Origin: SAR202 cluster bacterium
GTDB lineage: Bacteria; Chloroflexota; Dehalococcoidia; Lucifugimonadales; Lucifugimonadaceae
DNA: 45,773 bases
Reading direction: 5' to 3'
Assembly: GCA_008373205.1 (NCBI GenBank)
Contig: RQOS01000036.1
Coordinates: forward strand, 1 to 45,773
Of the stretch, positions 5,163 to 42,650 are shown piece after piece. Position 1 is the stretch's first letter, and each line of letters starts with the position of its first letter. Both the position numbers and the translations under genes were made by a program. Below the pieces are notes generated by a model. It was not told where the DNA came from and ran no database searches. It saw nothing but the letters and a program-made list of their open reading frames with translations.

Positions 5163-6146
5163 ATGAACCTAAGAATTTCATTAATTTTAATAACTATTTT
5201 AGCTTGGGTTTCAATATTTGGAGTACTTATCTACAAATCTGATATAGGTGAAGAGAAAGTAGTTCAAGACAGCTCATTCTTTTACAGAATTTCTTCTCAA
5301 GATATCTCAAATATTTCAATTACAAATAACTCTAAATCGTTCAGTTGGTATTTAGGGGATGATAGAGTTTGGTATTTTGATGGTATGAATAAAATCCCTA
5401 CTGATAGTTTTAGATGGGGAGGAATAATTGATCTTTTAGCAGGACCTAAATTATACAGAACGATTTCTGAAAATATTGATGATAAAAGTAAGTATGGACT
5501 TGAAAATCCTAACACTGAAATTTCAATTTACCTAAATAATGGAGATAAAAGAACACTATATATTGGAAACGAAACTCCAGATAATTTAAACAACTATGCA
5601 TATCTAGAAGGAGTTGAAAAATTAGTAATGTTAGATGCTACTTGGAAAGGAGTTTTAGGAAGATTAGTAGATGAACCTCCTTACCCAAAGTGGATGTATA
5701 ATTTAGTTCCAGAAGAAGCTTTGGAAATAGTAATTATTAAAGATAATGAAATTTATAAAGCTTATGCAAAAAATGATGAAGGATGGCATGAGTGTGATTT
5801 ACCTATTTCATCCACACCATGTAATGGAAACAATCAAGCGGAAAAAGAATATATTGAAAACTTCCTAGTTGATTTCTCTAATATAAATATTTTAGGTGCA
5901 GTTCAGCTCAACTTATTATTTGAAGAAGACTATAAGCAATATGGGCTAGGCCTTGAAGCTCCCTATGTAGATATAAAAACTATATCTAGAGATGCTTCAG
6001 GTACTAACACAATTTATAATACATCCATAAGTATAGGAAAGCTAAATGAAGATAAAACGGGGTATTTTTCTGTAGCCAAAGAGACCAAAGACGTTATTCT
6101 CACTGAAAAAGAATGGACAGAAAAAATACTTCAAGTTTTCGATTAA
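5163..6146 (+). CDS. DUF4340 domain protein, membrane-anchored
   Basis: Protein of 327 residues with a hydrophobic N-terminal segment (about 4-24, ISLILITILAWVSIFGVLIY) acting as signal anchor, then an extracytoplasmic domain rich in beta strands. The stretch containing KYGLENP and YIGNETP matches the DUF4340 pattern, a family that commonly follows GldG-like genes. It starts 1 base after the GldG-like stop. Its stop codon overlaps the stop of the convergent VWA gene by 4 bases (TTAA at 6143-6146 is read in both directions). Function unknown; probably an accessory of the exporter. Confidence 0.8.
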   Translation: MNLRISLILITILAWVSIFGVLIYKSDIGEEKVVQDSSFFYRISSQDISNISITNNSKSFSWYLGDDRVWYFDGMNKIPTDSFRWGGIIDLLAGPKLYRTISENIDDKSKYGLENPNTEISIYLNNGDKRTLYIGNETPDNLNNYAYLEGVEKLVMLDATWKGVLGRLVDEPPYPKWMYNLVPEEALEIVIIKDNEIYKAYAKNDEGWHECDLPISSTPCNGNNQAEKEYIENFLVDFSNINILGAVQLNLLFEEDYKQYGLGLEAPYVDIKTISRDASGTNTIYNTSISIGKLNEDKTGYFSVAKETKDVILTEKEWTEKILQVFD

Positions 6147-9100
6147 GTAGTAAGGTTTTTGTATAGCTCTGGCAATCTAGCAGGCAGCATAGAAATATCA
6201 GATAAAACCTCATATGAAAAATCATCCATCATAGTCTTTAGATAATCATGACCAGATTTATCTACAGTTAGGCAAAAAGGAGTAATCCCTTGCTGTCTTG
6301 CTTCTATCAAGGCTTGTCTTGTGTCATATACAGCATATTCTTTTTCGACACCTTCTCTTGAATAGCCTCTATCTTGAGGTCTTCCATCAGTTATTAAGAA
6401 TATAAATCTTGACCGCGCTTCATGGTCTGCAAGCTTTGTAATAGTATGTCTTATTGCTGGTCCCATTCTAGTTGCATGAAGTGGAGCAACTCGATCAATT
6501 CGGCCTGAAATTGAATCATTGAATTTTTCATCTAGATCTTTTATTGTATAAAACTCTACATTTTCTCTTCCATAGCCGGAGAATCCATATATTCCATAGT
6601 CATCACCAAGCATTTCTAAGGAATTCACCATTAAGACTATACCTTCTTTTTCTACATCAACAATTCTTTTATAAGATCTTCTTAGACCTTCGGCTCTTCT
6701 TGATCTAAGCCAAATCATATATTCAACAGGATCATCTGGAGCACCCCAATCATCACTGTTAGACTTAGAGTTGTCATCAATAGCCTCAGCTGTTGAAGCA
6801 GACATATCTATAAGCATAGCTACTGCAACTGATCTTTCAGTTTTGTTTCGTCTCCAATAAATTTTTTCATCGGGAGTAACTCCAGATCTTAAGTCTATAA
6901 GTGCTTCAATACCTGCATCTAGATCTGCTTCTTCTCCATCTTCTAAACGTTTTTGCTTTCTGTATTGCTCAGGAACAAATAGTTCAAATTGTTTTTTTAT
7001 CTGATAAACCAGTGAAGAATTATTAGTTAATGTATCTTTGTAAAAGTTTGCTTCTCCATCTGGCAGTTTCTTTTCATGCAAAAGACACCAGTTGGGTTTA
7101 TATTCAACATCTCTGAAATCCCACTCTGGATACGTAAATGTATCTGGCTCTTTTGCCTCTAGAGGCCCTCCTTCTTCATCGATGTGCATTGGATCTCCGC
7201 CTGTAAAAGAGGAGCTATCAAGATCTCTATTTTTCAATTCTTTCATAAGGTTTTCTAGAAGTTCTTGATTCTCTGAAGCATCTACTTCAGGATTTTCATC
7301 AGATTCTTTTGTTTCTAAATCAGGAGAATTTTGCACTAATTCTTCTATTTGCTCTTGAGTTAGCCCCTGAATTTCTTCACCTTCTCCAAGTCCTTCTTCT
7401 CCTGATGCAGTTAGCATTTCTGTTAATAATTGACCAAGTTCAGGTTTAAAATCACCCTGATATTCTACTGGATCAGCTGGACTATAATTTTCTTCCATAG
7501 GATCAATTGTTTCTTGATCTTGAGTTTCTTCTCCTGATTGTTCTCCCATGCTTGAATCATACATATCTCCAAAATAGGACATCATTTCTTCTACAGTTTC
7601 AGGATCATTATACTCATCTTCAGATTCATCAAGATCTGGCAATTCTTCAATTTCCTCTAATGGTTCATTTTCTTTATCGTTTGTAATTTTCCTTATGTTG
7701 TCGAATAATCTAACTGTCACCATCATAGAATCTTCAACTGTCATTATATTCTTATCAAAATTAGTTAATGTTCTTAGATAATTAGTTATTTTATTAAAAA
7801 TAGATTTAGTTCCCTTCGGGACATTAAAATTGGTTTCTTTACCTAAGGTAAATTTTATGACTTCTTCTATAAAAATTTCTCTTTTATTTTCTCTGTCACT
7901 AGTACGATTATTTAAGGTTTCTAGTCTTATTTTTCTAAACTCATTTCTTAATCCAGGGTATTTTTTTAGAATTAATTCATCAATTCTATATGCTTCGACG
8001 ATATTAAATAACTCAGCAGCAAATTGAGGGTCTGCAATAAATGGTTTTGCACCTCTTAGAACTTTAGCAATTCTTGTTGCATGTTCTTCACCCATTTCTG
8101 ATACTTGTTCAAGTAATTTATTAAAAATCTCTTTTGAATATGGATTAATTGGTTCAAGCCTATAGTCATATTTAAATGTTCCATATTCAGAATATGCAGC
8201 TTGACGTGCAGAAATTATCTTATAGTAACTAAAATTCTCTTCTTTAGTTGAATATTGTTTAATAACGCTTGGGAGGTATATAGTCTTACCATCAGTTGTA
8301 GGTAAATCGGTATCTGTCCATCCTATATTTTTTTCTACATTTTTTGAAGTTTCCGAGATTGCTACATCGACATCACATAATGCTGTACAAAAAAGTTTCA
8401 TCAGATCCTTGATTCTATGTAATTCAACACTTGATGAAATTCGATCAATCAAATCATTTGATTCTTTAGATTGTAATTTGAAAAATTGAGATGCTGGAGA
8501 TGTATTTGTATCCTGATCAATTGCCAGTCTGATTCCTTGAGATTTCCACTGATCTAATTGATCAATATCTAAGTTATCTAATAATCTAGGTGTATTGGTT
8601 AGAAAATCCATACTTGCATATGGAACATTATTAACAATTTGTTGATTCATTTGAAGAATTTGATCTCTATCGTTTTGATTTACTAGAGCTAATGTCTTTA
8701 GGATCAACTGTAAAAATTCTGAAATTTTTATTCCAGCAGTTCCATATATTCTTCTACACATATCAAAAATTAGCTTTACATTAGCATTAGGTAATTTAAT
8801 AATTTGATCATTTACTATCTCATATACTGGCTTTATATCTCTCCATTCTTTCTCAGTAATTAACAATGAAAGATGAATCAAATCATCAATTTCAAGAAAG
8901 TTGGATTTATAAATTTCAATTGAATTATCTAAAATTTCAGATGCATAGTCATAGGATCTATTAGAAAGAACATCAATAAAATCAACAAGTTTACAATACT
9001 GATCAAAAGATAATGTTTCTAAAATTACTGGAGTTGATTCAAATAATTTACAGGTTAAATTAGTAGATTTCCATGTCCCTTTATAAAGCTTAGTTACTCT

Positions 9101-9475
9101 AGTAACCCAATCATCAATATATCTTGGTCTTAATCTGATCATTGTCATAGGGCTGGAAGTTAAGAATGATTCAGCTATCTTAGTACTTTCTTTTGAAAGC
9201 TTGTAACCCGCTTTGCTCCATCCTAAAAATTGACCAGATGGTAAGTACTGCTGAACCTTAACTGATACATTAAAATATGCAAGTGCAGATTCCCATGATC
9301 TTGCAGATTCTTTTGATATATCTACACCAATATTTTCCCATTGGTACAATATTTCTTCTGGTAACTTTTTCTCCAGAATTTCTCTAGATTCAAGATAGGC
9401 ATTTGTTACCTCTTCAGGATAAGCCTTTAGAAGTCTCTTGATTTTTTCATGATCAAATTTTGAAATATTTTCCAT
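6143..9475 (-). CDS. Large VWA-domain protein of the CbbO/NorD type
   Basis: Protein of 1110 residues. The first 600 residues look like helical repeats with no recognised motif. About 615-790 is a very acidic, low-complexity linker rich in E, D, S and Q. The C-terminal part is a von Willebrand A domain with an intact metal-ion (MIDAS) site: DMSAS at 890-894, T1002 in HATRMGP and D1030 in LITDGRPQD. This layout, next to a CbbQ-type ATPase, matches CbbO/NorD proteins, which act with a MoxR-class AAA+ ring to remodel or activate a client enzyme. The familiar clients (Rubisco, nitric oxide reductase) are absent from the window. It follows the NUDIX gene by 2 bases. No signal peptide, so cytoplasmic. 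The client is unknown. Confidence 0.82.
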   Translation of the reverse strand: MENISKFDHEKIKRLLKAYPEEVTNAYLESREILEKKLPEEILYQWENIGVDISKESARSWESALAYFNVSVKVQQYLPSGQFLGWSKAGYKLSKESTKIAESFLTSSPMTMIRLRPRYIDDWVTRVTKLYKGTWKSTNLTCKLFESTPVILETLSFDQYCKLVDFIDVLSNRSYDYASEILDNSIEIYKSNFLEIDDLIHLSLLITEKEWRDIKPVYEIVNDQIIKLPNANVKLIFDMCRRIYGTAGIKISEFLQLILKTLALVNQNDRDQILQMNQQIVNNVPYASMDFLTNTPRLLDNLDIDQLDQWKSQGIRLAIDQDTNTSPASQFFKLQSKESNDLIDRISSSVELHRIKDLMKLFCTALCDVDVAISETSKNVEKNIGWTDTDLPTTDGKTIYLPSVIKQYSTKEENFSYYKIISARQAAYSEYGTFKYDYRLEPINPYSKEIFNKLLEQVSEMGEEHATRIAKVLRGAKPFIADPQFAAELFNIVEAYRIDELILKKYPGLRNEFRKIRLETLNNRTSDRENKREIFIEEVIKFTLGKETNFNVPKGTKSIFNKITNYLRTLTNFDKNIMTVEDSMMVTVRLFDNIRKITNDKENEPLEEIEELPDLDESEDEYNDPETVEEMMSYFGDMYDSSMGEQSGEETQDQETIDPMEENYSPADPVEYQGDFKPELGQLLTEMLTASGEEGLGEGEEIQGLTQEQIEELVQNSPDLETKESDENPEVDASENQELLENLMKELKNRDLDSSSFTGGDPMHIDEEGGPLEAKEPDTFTYPEWDFRDVEYKPNWCLLHEKKLPDGEANFYKDTLTNNSSLVYQIKKQFELFVPEQYRKQKRLEDGEEADLDAGIEALIDLRSGVTPDEKIYWRRNKTERSVAVAMLIDMSASTAEAIDDNSKSNSDDWGAPDDPVEYMIWLRSRRAEGLRRSYKRIVDVEKEGIVLMVNSLEMLGDDYGIYGFSGYGRENVEFYTIKDLDEKFNDSISGRIDRVAPLHATRMGPAIRHTITKLADHEARSRFIFLITDGRPQDRGYSREGVEKEYAVYDTRQALIEARQQGITPFCLTVDKSGHDYLKTMMDDFSYEVLSDISMLPARLPELYKNLTT

Positions 9476-11016: not shown

Positions 11017-12372
11017 ATGAATCTAAAAAAAATACCTAGTGTAAATGATCTGCTTATATCAAAGAAATTTTCAAAAAAAAATATAAGAAGAGATCTACTA
11101 AAAAATATAATTAATAAAGAGCTAGATTTAGTAAGAAAAATTCTAAAAAATGATGATTCAGTAAGTATTTCTAAAGCTGAAATTGAATCAAATATATTAT
11201 TAAGAATTGACTCACTCAGTAATTCGTATTTAAGAAAAATCATCAATGGTTCCGGTGTGATTTTACATACAAATTTAGGAAGAGCCCCATTGTCTAAAGG
11301 TATTTCAAAGAATATTTATGAAGTAATAAGTAATTATAGCGATCTAGAGATGAATATAACAACCAAAACTAGAAACTCAAGATTAGACAATATATCAAAG
11401 TTACTAAACTTAATTACTGGAGCTGAAAAAGCTGCTGTATTTAATAATAATGCTTTGGCATTAATTGTTACTTTAGCAAGTTTAGGTAAGGGAAAAGAAA
11501 TATTAGTTTCTAGGTCAGAATCTATTGAAATTGGAGGTGGATTTAGGATACCAGAAATAATTAAATTATCCGGTTTAAAAATAGTAGATATAGGAACCAC
11601 TAATAAAACTTATGTTAAGGATTATGAAGAAAATATAACAAAAAATACAGTTGGTTTTTTAAAAGTTCATAAATCAAACTATAAAATCAAAGGTTTTACT
11701 AACGAAATTTCTATAAAAGAATTAAGTGAACTTTCTAAAGAAAAAAATATACCCCTAATTCATGATTTAGGTTCAGGAACATTAGTAAATACCGAGAAAT
11801 TCGACCTCCCCTATGAACCTACTGTTGTTGATAGTGTGAACAATGGTGCTGATATTACATTATTTTCTTCAGATAAATTACTTGGAGGTCCTCAGTCAGG
11901 AATAGTGTTGGGTAAGAAAAAATTAATTGAAAAAATCAATTCATCTCCTTTATCAAGAGCTGCAAGAATTGATAAATTAAATTTGAGTATCTTAAACGAT
12001 ACTCTTATAAATTATCTAAAGAATGATTATCAAGAAACTATACCTGTTTGGAATTTAATTAATTTATCTAAAGATTCATTGAAAAAAAGAGCTAATGATA
12101 TTATTCATAAAATCCCTAAAAACACATTTAGGATCAGGGAAGATATTAAGTCTACAATTGGAGGGGGGACTTTCCCTGATACATTTATAGATAGTGTCGG
12201 TATAAGTATAGGCAAAACACATAAAATTTCAGATTTAGAAAACTATTTACTAAACCTTAGCAATCCAATAGTAGGGAGAATTGAAAATGATGAGTTTTTG
12301 CTAGATTTAAGGACTATTTTTGAAGAATATGATAATTACTTAATTAGCAACATAAACAAATACTTTAAGTAA
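11017..12372 (+). CDS. selA: L-seryl-tRNA(Sec) selenium transferase
   Basis: PLP enzyme of 451 residues that converts Ser-tRNA(Sec) to Sec-tRNA(Sec) using selenophosphate. Full-length for the family. The N-terminus carries IPSVNDLL, then the SelA signature INGSGVILHTNLGRAPLS (76-93), and the Schiff-base lysine K287 lies in SSDKLLGGPQSG. These features distinguish true SelA from the SelA-like enzyme at 36220-37380. selB, selD and the tRNA-Sec gene are not in the window, so a working selenocysteine system is implied but not shown. The next gene, rarA, starts immediately after the stop, with no bases between. Confidence 0.92.
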   Translation: MNLKKIPSVNDLLISKKFSKKNIRRDLLKNIINKELDLVRKILKNDDSVSISKAEIESNILLRIDSLSNSYLRKIINGSGVILHTNLGRAPLSKGISKNIYEVISNYSDLEMNITTKTRNSRLDNISKLLNLITGAEKAAVFNNNALALIVTLASLGKGKEILVSRSESIEIGGGFRIPEIIKLSGLKIVDIGTTNKTYVKDYEENITKNTVGFLKVHKSNYKIKGFTNEISIKELSELSKEKNIPLIHDLGSGTLVNTEKFDLPYEPTVVDSVNNGADITLFSSDKLLGGPQSGIVLGKKKLIEKINSSPLSRAARIDKLNLSILNDTLINYLKNDYQETIPVWNLINLSKDSLKKRANDIIHKIPKNTFRIREDIKSTIGGGTFPDTFIDSVGISIGKTHKISDLENYLLNLSNPIVGRIENDEFLLDLRTIFEEYDNYLISNINKYFK

Positions 12373-39267: not shown

Positions 39268-39888
39268 ATGGACATATTATTTTTAAAGGATCTTTTGCCT
39301 ACTGCAAGAGCAGGTGATGTAAAGAATGTAAAACCAGGTTTTGCAAGAAATTATTTGATACCCCAAGGTGTTGCAGTTTTAGCAACAGAAGAAGCACTGC
39401 AGAGAGCAACAAAATTAAGAGCTGAAGCTGAAGAGCGAAAAGTACAAGAAACAAAAGATTGGAAAGTTGTTGCAGACAGCCTTGAAGATACTGAGTTAGA
39501 AATTGAAGTTAGAACCGGACCAACAGGCAGACTTTATGGATCTATAACCCCTGCTATAATTGCTGATTCTCTTGCAGAAAAATTAGGAAAAGAGATGAAC
39601 AAAAGATTTTTCAATATTCTAGAGCCAATAAGAGTACTTGGTAAATATAAAATATTTGTAAAATTTGTTGAAGAAGTAAACTTCAACTTAACCCTTAATG
39701 TTGTTCCTGATGAAGAATCTCAAAAAGTAATTGAGGAACATAAAGAAGAACAAGAAAAATTGAAAAAATTAGAAGAAAAAGAGCAGAAATCTGAAGCTAA
39801 TTCTGAAGAAGAATTAAATAAAGAAGAAAATGACCAAAAAACCTCTTCTGAAAAAAATGAAATAGAAGATAATAATTCAAATAATTAA
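39268..39888 (+). CDS. rplI: 50S ribosomal protein L9 with acidic C-terminal extension
   Basis: L9 of 206 residues; usual length is about 150. The N-terminal domain MDILFLKDLLPTARAGDVKNVKPGFARNYLIPQG is shortened here to its recognisable core GDVKNVKPGFARNYLIP, and the C-terminal domain has GPTGRLYGSITPAII. After about residue 152 a glutamate-, lysine- and asparagine-rich tail of about 54 residues follows, mostly EE, KE and EN pairs, probably disordered or coiled. AGGAG is present but 13 bases from the ATG. It leads an operon with dnaB, an order common in bacteria. Confidence 0.95.
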   Translation: MDILFLKDLLPTARAGDVKNVKPGFARNYLIPQGVAVLATEEALQRATKLRAEAEERKVQETKDWKVVADSLEDTELEIEVRTGPTGRLYGSITPAIIADSLAEKLGKEMNKRFFNILEPIRVLGKYKIFVKFVEEVNFNLTLNVVPDEESQKVIEEHKEEQEKLKKLEEKEQKSEANSEEELNKEENDQKTSSEKNEIEDNNSNN

Positions 39889-39906: not shown

Positions 39907-41292
39907 ATGGTTTTATCTGATAAGCTTTTTCCACATGATATATCTGCAGAAGAGTCTGTAATTGGATCACTATTATTAGATGGTTTATCATTTACTAAAA
40001 TTGCATCATTCTTAGAACCTGAGCATTTTTATTTAGAGCCAAATAGAATCATTTTTGAAATAGCAAGAGATCTTTTTAATAGACAAGAACCTATCAATCA
40101 AATAAGTATTGCTCATGAACTTGAGACGCAAGAAAAGCTTGAAGATGTAGGTGGAAGAGCGTATCTAGCAAAGGTTGTAGATGTAGTTCCAACATCAATT
40201 CACATAAAACATTATGCAAATCTTGTTAGAAGAACAGCTACAATGAGAACTCTAATTAATGCTGCTGAAAATATTTCTGAAATAGGATTTGATAATGATC
40301 CAGATATTGAAAATGCTTTATCCAAAGCTGAGGATATAATTTACAGCATTAGAAATGATCAACCTAGTAGAGATTTTGTTCCGTTAAGAGAAACTCTTAC
40401 CCCATATTTAGAAACATCTTCATCTGATTTAGCTGATGATGAAAATAGACCTATCAGTTCAGGCTTTAAGTTGTTAGATGATCTTTTAGGAGGGCTACAA
40501 AGATCTGATATGCTAGTTTTAGCTGCGAGGCCATCAGTAGGAAAATCAATGTTTGCATTAAATTTAGCTATAAATGCAGCTATGAATGATCAAAAAGTAG
40601 CAATTTACTCATTAGAAATGGGTAGAGAACAAATAGCCACAAGAATGCTAGCTACTCAAGCTCGAGTAAATATGCATTCATTAAGAATGATGAGACTTAG
40701 CTCATCTCAGGAAAATAGATTAGTTGATGCAATCGGTAGGCTATCTGACCTTTCTATATTTATTGATGATTCTCCTGTTCAAGGAGTAGCAGAAATGAGA
40801 GGTAAAGCTCGTAGGTTACAACTGGAGTATGGTTTAGATTTTATAATAGTCGATTATATGCAATTGATAAGTAATAACAAAGGAAGCAGGGAGACTAATA
40901 GAGCGCAAGAAGTCTCAGAGATATCACGTCAAATAAAAGCTATGGCAAGAGACTTAAGAGTTCCTGTTATTGCAATTTCACAATTATCTAGAGCAATAGA
41001 ACATAGACAATCTCATAGGCCATTACTTTCTGACTTAAGAGAATCTGGTTCTATCGAACAAGATGCTGATGTAGTTATGTTCATACATAGGGAGGAAAAA
41101 TTTACTACAAAAGAAGATTGGATAAAAAATAATCCTGGTGTTCCCTATCCTGAAGGTCAAGCTGAAATTATTGTTGCAAAACATAGAAATGGTCCTACAG
41201 ATACCATTCCTTTGGCAGTTGATGATTCAATTGGAAGATTTGTAACCATAGATTCTGCAAGAAATAATCAATTATCAACTCAAGAGAATTAA
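39907..41292 (+). CDS. dnaB: Replicative DNA helicase
   Basis: Hexameric 5'-3' replication-fork helicase of 461 residues. The N-terminal domain spans about 8-110 (DISAEESVIGSLLLDG). The RecA-like domain has Walker A ARPSVGKS at 207-214, Walker B IIVDYMQLI, and the arginine-rich ISQLSRAIEHR plus SDLRESGSIEQDADVVMFI. No intein is present. It starts 18 bases after rplI and its stop lies 2 bases before the tandem AAA+ gene, a probable loader. Confidence 0.97.
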   Translation: MVLSDKLFPHDISAEESVIGSLLLDGLSFTKIASFLEPEHFYLEPNRIIFEIARDLFNRQEPINQISIAHELETQEKLEDVGGRAYLAKVVDVVPTSIHIKHYANLVRRTATMRTLINAAENISEIGFDNDPDIENALSKAEDIIYSIRNDQPSRDFVPLRETLTPYLETSSSDLADDENRPISSGFKLLDDLLGGLQRSDMLVLAARPSVGKSMFALNLAINAAMNDQKVAIYSLEMGREQIATRMLATQARVNMHSLRMMRLSSSQENRLVDAIGRLSDLSIFIDDSPVQGVAEMRGKARRLQLEYGLDFIIVDYMQLISNNKGSRETNRAQEVSEISRQIKAMARDLRVPVIAISQLSRAIEHRQSHRPLLSDLRESGSIEQDADVVMFIHREEKFTTKEDWIKNNPGVPYPEGQAEIIVAKHRNGPTDTIPLAVDDSIGRFVTIDSARNNQLSTQEN

Positions 41293-41294
41293 TT

Positions 41295-42650
41295 TTGGAA
41301 AGTTTAAAAGAAATATTAAATAATAGGAAACAACAAGGAGTTGTTTCCGTAGATTCAAATAAAGATCCTTACAATGAAGATTGTAATATTTGTAACTCAG
41401 CTCGCTGGGTAATAGTAAATAATGAAACTGTTCCTTGTAACGTATGCCAAAATAATTCTCAAGATGACTTAGATCTAAAGATAAGAATTAAGTATGCAGG
41501 AGTAAATCAACTTCTAGAATATAATTTAAATAATTTCAAAATTGATGGGTCTGTTGGTAAGTCTGAACCTAAAAATTTAAGAAATTTTCTAAATCTCGCT
41601 AAGGATTATTCTAAAAACCCCATGGGTTGGTTGGTTATAAATGGACCTACAGGCACAGGTAAAACTCATCTAGCAGCAGGTATAGCTATAAGATGTGTAG
41701 AAAATAGTACGCCGGTTATTTACAAGTCTATTCAAGAAATAGTTGATGTTATAACAAACACAAATCCTGAAGACGAATCATTTAATGATCTTATAGATTT
41801 TCCCTTTTTAGTTATTGATGATTATGGGAATCAAACATATTCTGATTGGATTGAGGAAAAAATTGATCATCTTTTTACACATAGATATACTAGAAAATTA
41901 CCTACTGTAATAGCCTTAAGTTCGAATATTTTAGACTTAGATGATAGATCGCAAATGAGATTTACTGACCCTAAACTTGTTCAAAGTATAAATTTAGAAT
42001 CAAAACAAATAACAATATTTTCAAATGGTATTCCTAAAGCATTTGAAAAAGCTAAACTAACAAAAGAATTAAAAAAACCAATCAAAAATTCAAGTCAATC
42101 AGATAAAGTTACCTATGATTCTATAGAAATGGCTCTATTTAAGTCTAAGGAGTATGTAAATAGTAAAAATCCAAATTGGCTATACATACATGGAGAAACT
42201 GGATCTGGTAAAAGTTACTTATCAGCTGCAATTGCTAATGAACTTATAAATAAAGGAAATGATATTTATTTTATTAGCTCTTCGGAACTAATAGAGAAAG
42301 TTAGAGAGCAATTTGGGAACAATCCTGGAAAAGGTTGGGAATATGAAAAAGCCAAAGATGTTGATTTTCTATTTATAGATGATCTCTGGGGTCATAATAA
42401 TACTAAATGGTCAGATGAATTAATTTACAACTTATTGGTTTATAGACAAGACAACCTAAAAGCTACAGTTTTAAATTCAAGTATCATTTACGACAAAATA
42501 AAAGCGTATAAAACTAAAAAAAATCAAATTTCTTCCGATACTATTTTTACGGAAAAGATTTGTTCAAGACTTTCAAACAAAAATATAGTTGAACAAATAT
42601 CTTTAGTATCATCTGATATAAGAAAAAAAAATCTAATTAAAAAAGTCTAA
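41295..42650 (+). CDS. Tandem AAA+ DnaC/DnaI-like protein with zinc-ribbon N-terminus
   Basis: Protein of 451 residues, about twice the size of DnaC. A CxxC pair at C30/C33 and another at C48/C51 form a likely zinc ribbon, as in some DnaI/DnaC relatives. The first AAA+ domain has Walker A GPTGTGKT (117-124) and Walker B FLVIDDYG (171-178). A linker of about 30 residues (248-277) leads to a second with GETGSGKS (300-307) and FLFIDDLWG (358-366). Both domains end with a similar R...L..(V)...I.L pattern, so they look like a duplication. The start is TTG at 41295, 2 bases after the dnaB stop. Placement suggests a helicase loader; this is inferred. The next gene starts on the last base of its stop. 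Confidence 0.78.
   Translation: MESLKEILNNRKQQGVVSVDSNKDPYNEDCNICNSARWVIVNNETVPCNVCQNNSQDDLDLKIRIKYAGVNQLLEYNLNNFKIDGSVGKSEPKNLRNFLNLAKDYSKNPMGWLVINGPTGTGKTHLAAGIAIRCVENSTPVIYKSIQEIVDVITNTNPEDESFNDLIDFPFLVIDDYGNQTYSDWIEEKIDHLFTHRYTRKLPTVIALSSNILDLDDRSQMRFTDPKLVQSINLESKQITIFSNGIPKAFEKAKLTKELKKPIKNSSQSDKVTYDSIEMALFKSKEYVNSKNPNWLYIHGETGSGKSYLSAAIANELINKGNDIYFISSSELIEKVREQFGNNPGKGWEYEKAKDVDFLFIDDLWGHNNTKWSDELIYNLLVYRQDNLKATVLNSSIIYDKIKAYKTKKNQISSDTIFTEKICSRLSNKNIVEQISLVSSDIRKKNLIKKV

Follow-up and report, generated by a model that had tools for sequence, protein, structure and literature searches.

The loader of the replicative helicase DnaB is DciA in most bacteria, and E. coli uses DnaC, which acts as six protomers with a single AAA+ domain each. 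It is unsettled how many loader ATPase domains act on a single DnaB ring, and if adjacent members of the loader ring are equivalent to each other: E. coli has six DnaC protomers, whereas the crystal of B. subtilis DnaI contains three dimers that are asymmetric. DnaI also has one AAA+ domain per chain, carries an N-terminal zinc domain for interaction with the helicase and works together with DnaD. On DnaB it is present as three dimers, in which the two monomers contact the helicase differently and are non-equivalent (PMC3791466).

For the Chloroflexi, Brezellec et al. (2016) reported that a dna[CI] gene was domesticated once; Dehalococcoides and Anaerolinea are among the species in their data (PMC5109545). 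The main text of that paper does not mention a tandem arrangement or a second AAA+ domain, and the domesticated genes very probably belong to the same gene family as the one described here. Our literature search, in which coverage of subscription journals was thin, found no description of tandem or two-domain helicase loaders, in agreement with a preliminary description of this DNA that knew of none. The protein presented below is apparently an undescribed variant of the DnaC/DnaI loaders.

A gene with two AAA+ domains downstream of dnaB

The DNA analysed, called the window in the following, is a stretch of 45,773 nucleotides from a SAR202 cluster bacterium of the phylum Chloroflexota (contig RQOS01000036.1). 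Close to its end it contains these genes and domains:

39268..39888, + strand: rplI, for ribosomal protein L9, at the head of the conserved cluster; Pfam Ribosomal_L9 N and C
39907..41292, + strand: dnaB, replicative helicase and presumed partner of the loader; Pfam DnaB_C and DnaB N-terminal domain
41295..42650, + strand: gene of the predicted tandem helicase loader (451 aa; TTG start; coordinates include the stop codon)
41382..41447, + strand: four-cysteine ribbon, residues 30-51, probable helicase-binding N-terminal domain (cysteine conservation; role taken from DnaI)
41484..42008, + strand: N-half AAA+ domain, residues about 64-238 (PF01695 at 36.8 bits alone; model against 3ecc)
42009..42080, + strand: linker joining the AAA+ domains, residues about 239-262 (low-confidence stretch of the model)
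42081..42647, + strand: C-half AAA+ domain, residues about 263-451 (PF01695 at 32.6 bits alone; model matches)

The loader frame starts 2 bp past the dnaB stop on the same strand, as had been described from the sequence before, and the TTG start is backed by homologues beginning with ME.L.EIL. Neighbours of the loader in the window are rplI, dnaB, an SMP30-like gene and a transketolase gene, the last two named by inspection.

The protein had been taken for a DnaC/DnaI-like protein with two complete AAA+ domains, and this holds: scored separately, both halves pass the cut-off (24.1 bits) of Pfam PF01695, the DnaC/DnaI/IstB ATPase family, and both have an AAA+ fold in the predicted structure. 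The best NCBIfam DnaC/DnaI-like models reach E values of about 1e-20 for each half. The loader remains below the cut-offs of the equivalog models for DnaI (NF006505; 99.1 bits, cut-off 228) and DnaC (NF005931; 77.8 bits, cut-off 357). Among solved structures compared by sequence, E. coli DnaC is the best match, with DnaI and A. aeolicus DnaC next in order, and the two halves align to different entries. The chain thus shares the AAA+ family of DnaI and DnaC but contains two linked, complete AAA+ domains where each of these has one, together with a single ribbon. The N-terminal domain of DnaC is not homologous to the zinc type.

An AlphaFold2 model of the single chain, calculated from an alignment of 41 relatives, has a mean pLDDT of 84 and contains two complete AAA+ cores; residues 238-241 in the linker fall below a pLDDT of 50. 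The fit of residues 70-238 (N-half) to A. aeolicus DnaC (3ecc) has a Z score of 20.3, and residues 241-451 (C-half) match IstB, DnaC, DnaI (2w58) and DnaA with Z scores of 17.6-19.4. The second domain, for which the fold had been the point in doubt, is therefore predicted to be a true AAA+ domain, and the first one likewise.

When the whole model was used in a Foldseek search, double-ring AAA+ proteins such as p97 led the matches. This could point to a machine in which each DnaB hexamer is bound by six tandem chains, their N-halves and C-halves forming two stacked rings as in p97, NSF and ClpA; the one ribbon per chain would then supply six docking domains for the six DnaB subunits, as with DnaC. 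However, superpositions of both domains together on p97-type proteins are weak (Z about 12, rmsd 5-9 A) compared with the single-domain matches (Z 18-20). Since the Z scores are so far below the single-domain values, these matches mostly reflect the presence of two AAA+ domains in one chain, and we judged them a by-product of it. To our knowledge, domains of the DnaC/I clade do not form stacked rings, and we regard this arrangement as improbable. The model itself does not separate side-by-side from stacked arrangements, since its placement of the domains relative to each other is unreliable (pTM 0.52).

Distribution and gene neighbourhood in Chloroflexota

A match to the loader was found in 189 of the 197 genomes of the window's order and in 225 of the 245 genomes of its class, the open frame being 450-550 aa long in most cases, and the tandem is the predominant form of the loader in this class. 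Across the phylum, 76 of 261 genomes contain a full-length profile match that spans both domains in one frame; the remaining matched genomes of this sample have mostly single-domain matches. A second class (that of genome G524), which we take to be probably Anaerolineae, has the tandem in 69 of 80 genomes. In other Chloroflexota, outside the two tandem classes, only single-domain loaders were seen. All of these numbers come from a survey restricted to Chloroflexota.

A close relative of the window is the MAG 'Chloroflexi bacterium TMED70', whose loader protein is 97% identical. An artificial joining of two separate genes by sequencing or assembly, a concern raised in the preliminary description, is ruled out, as the tandem is encoded in one frame in more than 130 distinct genomes (76 plus 69, about 11 of them shared); independent named MAG records with 97, 74 and 66% identity contradict it as well. 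Since the fused form is conserved in two classes, it is a real architectural variant of the DnaC/DnaI loaders.

Six single-contig genomes of the window's class (1.4-1.9 Mb) contain 19-30 reductive dehalogenase matches each, which makes them Dehalococcoides- and Dehalogenimonas-like and identifies the class as Dehalococcoidia; these genomes also carry the tandem. The protein is thus also present in genomes resembling cultured reductive-dehalogenating bacteria, and annotators should not take the DnaC-like ATP-binding protein encoded next to dnaB in such bacteria for an ordinary DnaC.

Some single-AAA+ loaders of other Chloroflexota are extended at the N-terminus. In L079, L080 and L081, Walker A lies at residue 377-416 of 515-554 aa, and in L182, L183 and L184 the AAA+ match begins at about residue 250-275 of 543-558; all six share a long N-terminal part ahead of the AAA+ domain. 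On four viral contigs (L095, L099, L105 and L153) the loader domain nests among the single-domain loaders of Chloroflexota, and these contigs could possibly be phages of Chloroflexota that have taken up or donated a loader gene.

The gene neighbourhood is conserved in the relatives. The loader gene is nearly always located on the same strand as dnaB, either directly after it with a gap of 2-4 bp or after dnaB-dnaD, and rplI precedes dnaB wherever the locus extends that far, giving rplI-dnaB-dnaD-loader as the usual order. In most genomes, dnaB and the loader gene are about 500-850 bp apart, and the gap contains a gene for a protein of about 200-250 aa. This protein is of the DnaD type: PF07261 has matches in 29 of the 41 genomes of the family, in most of them immediately before the loader gene, and the DnaD domain of the Dehalococcoides-like copy is matched at 1.6e-13. 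The usual presence of dnaD next to the tandem loader recalls DnaI and its partner DnaD.

Between dnaB and the loader of the window (41293-41294) there is no dnaD, and the gene is apparently also missing there in genus g10 and family f18. PF07261 had no match in five genomes of the window's genus, and a search of nine genomes of this genus with the Dehalococcoides-like DnaD protein, run without a positive control, found none.

A search for DciA (PF05258) found no match in the window genome (82% complete), in the sister genome G028 (97% complete) or in 58 of the 60 genomes searched in the class, and the window genome, at this completeness, contains no other DnaC/I-type protein above the Pfam cut-off. 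With neither DciA nor another protein of the DnaC/I type, the tandem is the only recognisable loader candidate. It is likely that the tandem protein functions as a DnaB loader.

Pfam names the AAA+ family IstB_IS21, and the fold matches IstB, the helper protein of IS21 transposition. The gene might on these grounds be a transposition helper or a phage remnant and not a housekeeping loader. We reject this reading as extremely improbable: unlike istB genes, the tandem has no adjoining istA and no transposon context, its position in the dnaB-dnaD cluster is fixed across the phylum, and the IS21 helper model gives 92.5 bits at a cut-off of 200. Among 50,697 phage records, 72,556 plasmids and the best 80 viral contigs, only single-domain loaders and no tandem form were found, which also speaks against a recent phage or plasmid origin. 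Throughout the phylum sample, the gene is resident and linked to replication genes rather than to mobile elements.

Origin of the pair and probable return to single domains

Within one protein, the N-half and the C-half are 28-60% identical (31.5% in the window protein), which argues that the AAA+ domain was duplicated within the gene and speaks against a joining of two unrelated genes. In the tree with 155 domains, one branch parts N-type from C-type halves, and 1 of 142 lies on the wrong side. Smaller trees misplace 2-9 domains (best branches 4 and 9) and have weak deep support; gene conversion between the halves may be a factor in these trees. When phage loaders served as outgroup, 18 single-domain loaders from other parts of the phylum formed one group with four phage loaders (bootstrap 95), distinct from the halves of the tandem proteins (66). 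That the two classes acquired the tandem independently is disfavoured by the split between N-halves and C-halves, for which deep support is modest.

Single-AAA+ loaders adjoining dnaB also occur within the window's tandem-bearing class, in families f59 (L059, L060, L061) and f18 (L062, L063) and in genus g10 (L064). Their AAA+ domains fall among the C-halves, with a support of 94-98 for f59. Going by this grouping, they are loaders that have lost the N-type domain and retained the ribbon. The simplest history, which we favour without regarding it as proved, would be a single-domain ancestor, one duplication ancestral to the two tandem classes and several reversions. The pair can be dispensed with, as several families of the class have returned to a single AAA+ domain.

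Conserved motifs and possible action on DnaB

The following motifs and residues were compared between the halves, with counts taken from 71 tandem proteins:

41643..41666, + strand: Walker A of the N-half, residues 117-124, GPTGTGKT (K123 in 71 of 71)
41808..41822, + strand: Walker B of the N-half, residues 172-176 (D175 in 70, D176 in 69 of 71)
41847..41849, + strand: W185 of the N-half, equivalent of the ssDNA-binding Tyr179 of DnaC (W in 71 of 71)
41946..41960, + strand: box VII of the N-half, R218 and R222 (R218 in 64 of 71; R222 is R in 62 and K in 9 of 71)
42192..42215, + strand: Walker A of the C-half, residues 300-307, GETGSGKS (K306 in 70 of 71)
42369..42383, + strand: Walker B of the C-half, residues 359-363 (D362 and D363 in 70 of 71 each)
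42408..42410, + strand: W372 of the C-half, equivalent of DnaC Tyr179 (W in 71 of 71)
42567..42569, + strand: box VII of the C-half, R425 (R in 68, K in 3 of 71)
42621..42623, + strand: sensor II of the C-half, R443 (R in 68 of 71; counterpart in the N-half absent here)

The paired Walker A and Walker B motifs noticed earlier are thus present and near-invariant. The C-terminal pattern then thought to be shared by the halves is shared in part. A basic box VII residue (R or K) is found in all 71 N-halves and all 71 C-halves; R222 and R425 could each be the arginine finger or a coupler, between which the alignment is ambiguous. The sensor II arginine belongs to the C-half only in the window protein, and an arginine is present in this variable column of the N-half in about 8 of the 71 tandems, all of them outside the window's class.

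The four cysteines of the ribbon (30, 33, 48 and 51), likewise described before, are invariant across 41 aligned homologues. Their spacing is C-X2-C-X14-C-X2-C here, and in most relatives C-X2-C-X21/22-C-X-C according to a spacing census. By analogy with the zinc domain with which B. subtilis DnaI contacts the helicase (PMC3791466), the ribbon is probably a helicase-binding domain and may bind zinc.

In E. coli DnaC, single-stranded DNA is bound by a tetrad of Lys143, Phe146, Ser177 and Tyr179 (PMC8213410), and the tandem has equivalents of these residues as it has of the Walker and box VII residues of DnaC. In most relatives, counterparts of all four (R, F/Y, T/S and W) are present in both halves. 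The C-half of the window protein has R337, F340, T370 and W372; its N-half has S183 and W185 only, with T154 at the Lys143 site and the Phe146 position empty. This lack of Lys143 and Phe146 counterparts in the N-half, but not in the C-half, is common to the window's genus.

Selection was estimated against four relatives, and dN/dS values are 0.03-0.18 and about equal between the halves. With both sets of motifs kept and purifying selection on each, neither half is decaying freely, yet the halves are not equivalent.

One explanation of the pair would need no new mechanism: either half would suffice, and a ratchet-like co-dependence would keep a neutral duplicate. The repeated reversion to single-AAA+ loaders beside dnaB in f59, f18 and g10 is what such a history could produce, but the intact ATP sites of both halves across two classes and the strong purifying selection on each argue against it, and we consider it quite improbable.

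Other paired AAA+ machines have inactive partner domains, and the preliminary description had suggested that one half might have become regulatory. The ATPase work of the loader would then fall to the C-half, and the N-half would be a nucleotide-binding domain with a regulatory or scaffolding role, acting as a brake or sensor. The scarcity of sensor II in the N-half, against its presence in 68 of 71 C-halves, fits this suggestion, as do the partial tetrad of the N-half and the fact that lineages of the window's class that lost one half retained the C-type AAA+ domain. What the suggestion does not explain is that the N-half retains the Walker A lysine (71 of 71), the Walker B aspartates (69-70 of 71) and the box VII basic residue and is under about the same purifying selection as the C-half. 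In addition, a loader that lacks sensor II may still be functional, because a DnaC sensor II mutant without ATPase activity still loaded DnaB normally (PMC8213410). We think such a specialisation of the halves somewhat unlikely, although it is the main rival of the reading that follows.

The reading we put forward, and to which we give about an even chance, is that the protein is a covalently linked dimer of the DnaI/DnaC type that arose by intragenic duplication of the AAA+ domain, serves as the DnaB loader of the cell and acts with three chains per hexamer. DnaB binding, loading, the 3:6 stoichiometry and the division of labour between the halves are inferred by analogy with the described loaders. 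The N-terminal ribbon would dock onto DnaB, and three tandem chains would provide six AAA+ domains per hexamer, an assembly already suggested in the preliminary description, each chain replacing one of the three DnaI dimers found on DnaB in Bacillus (PMC3791466). With ATP at both types of site, the paired pore tryptophans might grip single-stranded DNA, and the DnaB ring would be opened and then placed on the DNA. Canonical ATPase activity would reside in the C-half. In the window's lineage the N-half, which keeps the nucleotide site and the arginine finger region but is without sensor II, probably works more slowly or has a more structural role. We favour three chains per hexamer since a chain in which two AAA+ domains share one ribbon is the natural counterpart of one DnaI dimer; as DnaC in E. 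coli uses six separate protomers, other stoichiometries are possible.

More specifically, the two classes of Chloroflexota might load DnaB with covalently paired, asymmetric protomers, in which three chains would let canonical ATP sites alternate around the DnaB ring with sites lacking sensor II. We hold this to be a possibility that falls a little short of even. If true, the tandem would have the asymmetric DnaI dimer fixed in a single gene, and bacteria would have a third helicase-loader architecture beside single-AAA+ DnaC/DnaI and DciA. The tandem offers a natural test of loader pairing on the helicase, and this question can be addressed directly, because in a naturally linked dimer each site can be mutated separately without engineered fusions.

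Two further genes of the window were recorded in passing. A protein of 1110 aa (6143-9475, - strand) has a C-terminal von Willebrand A domain (residues 949-1082) as its sole recognised domain, and selA, encoding L-seryl-tRNA(Sec) selenium transferase, is present at 11017-12372 (+ strand) in this genome of 1.3 Mb.
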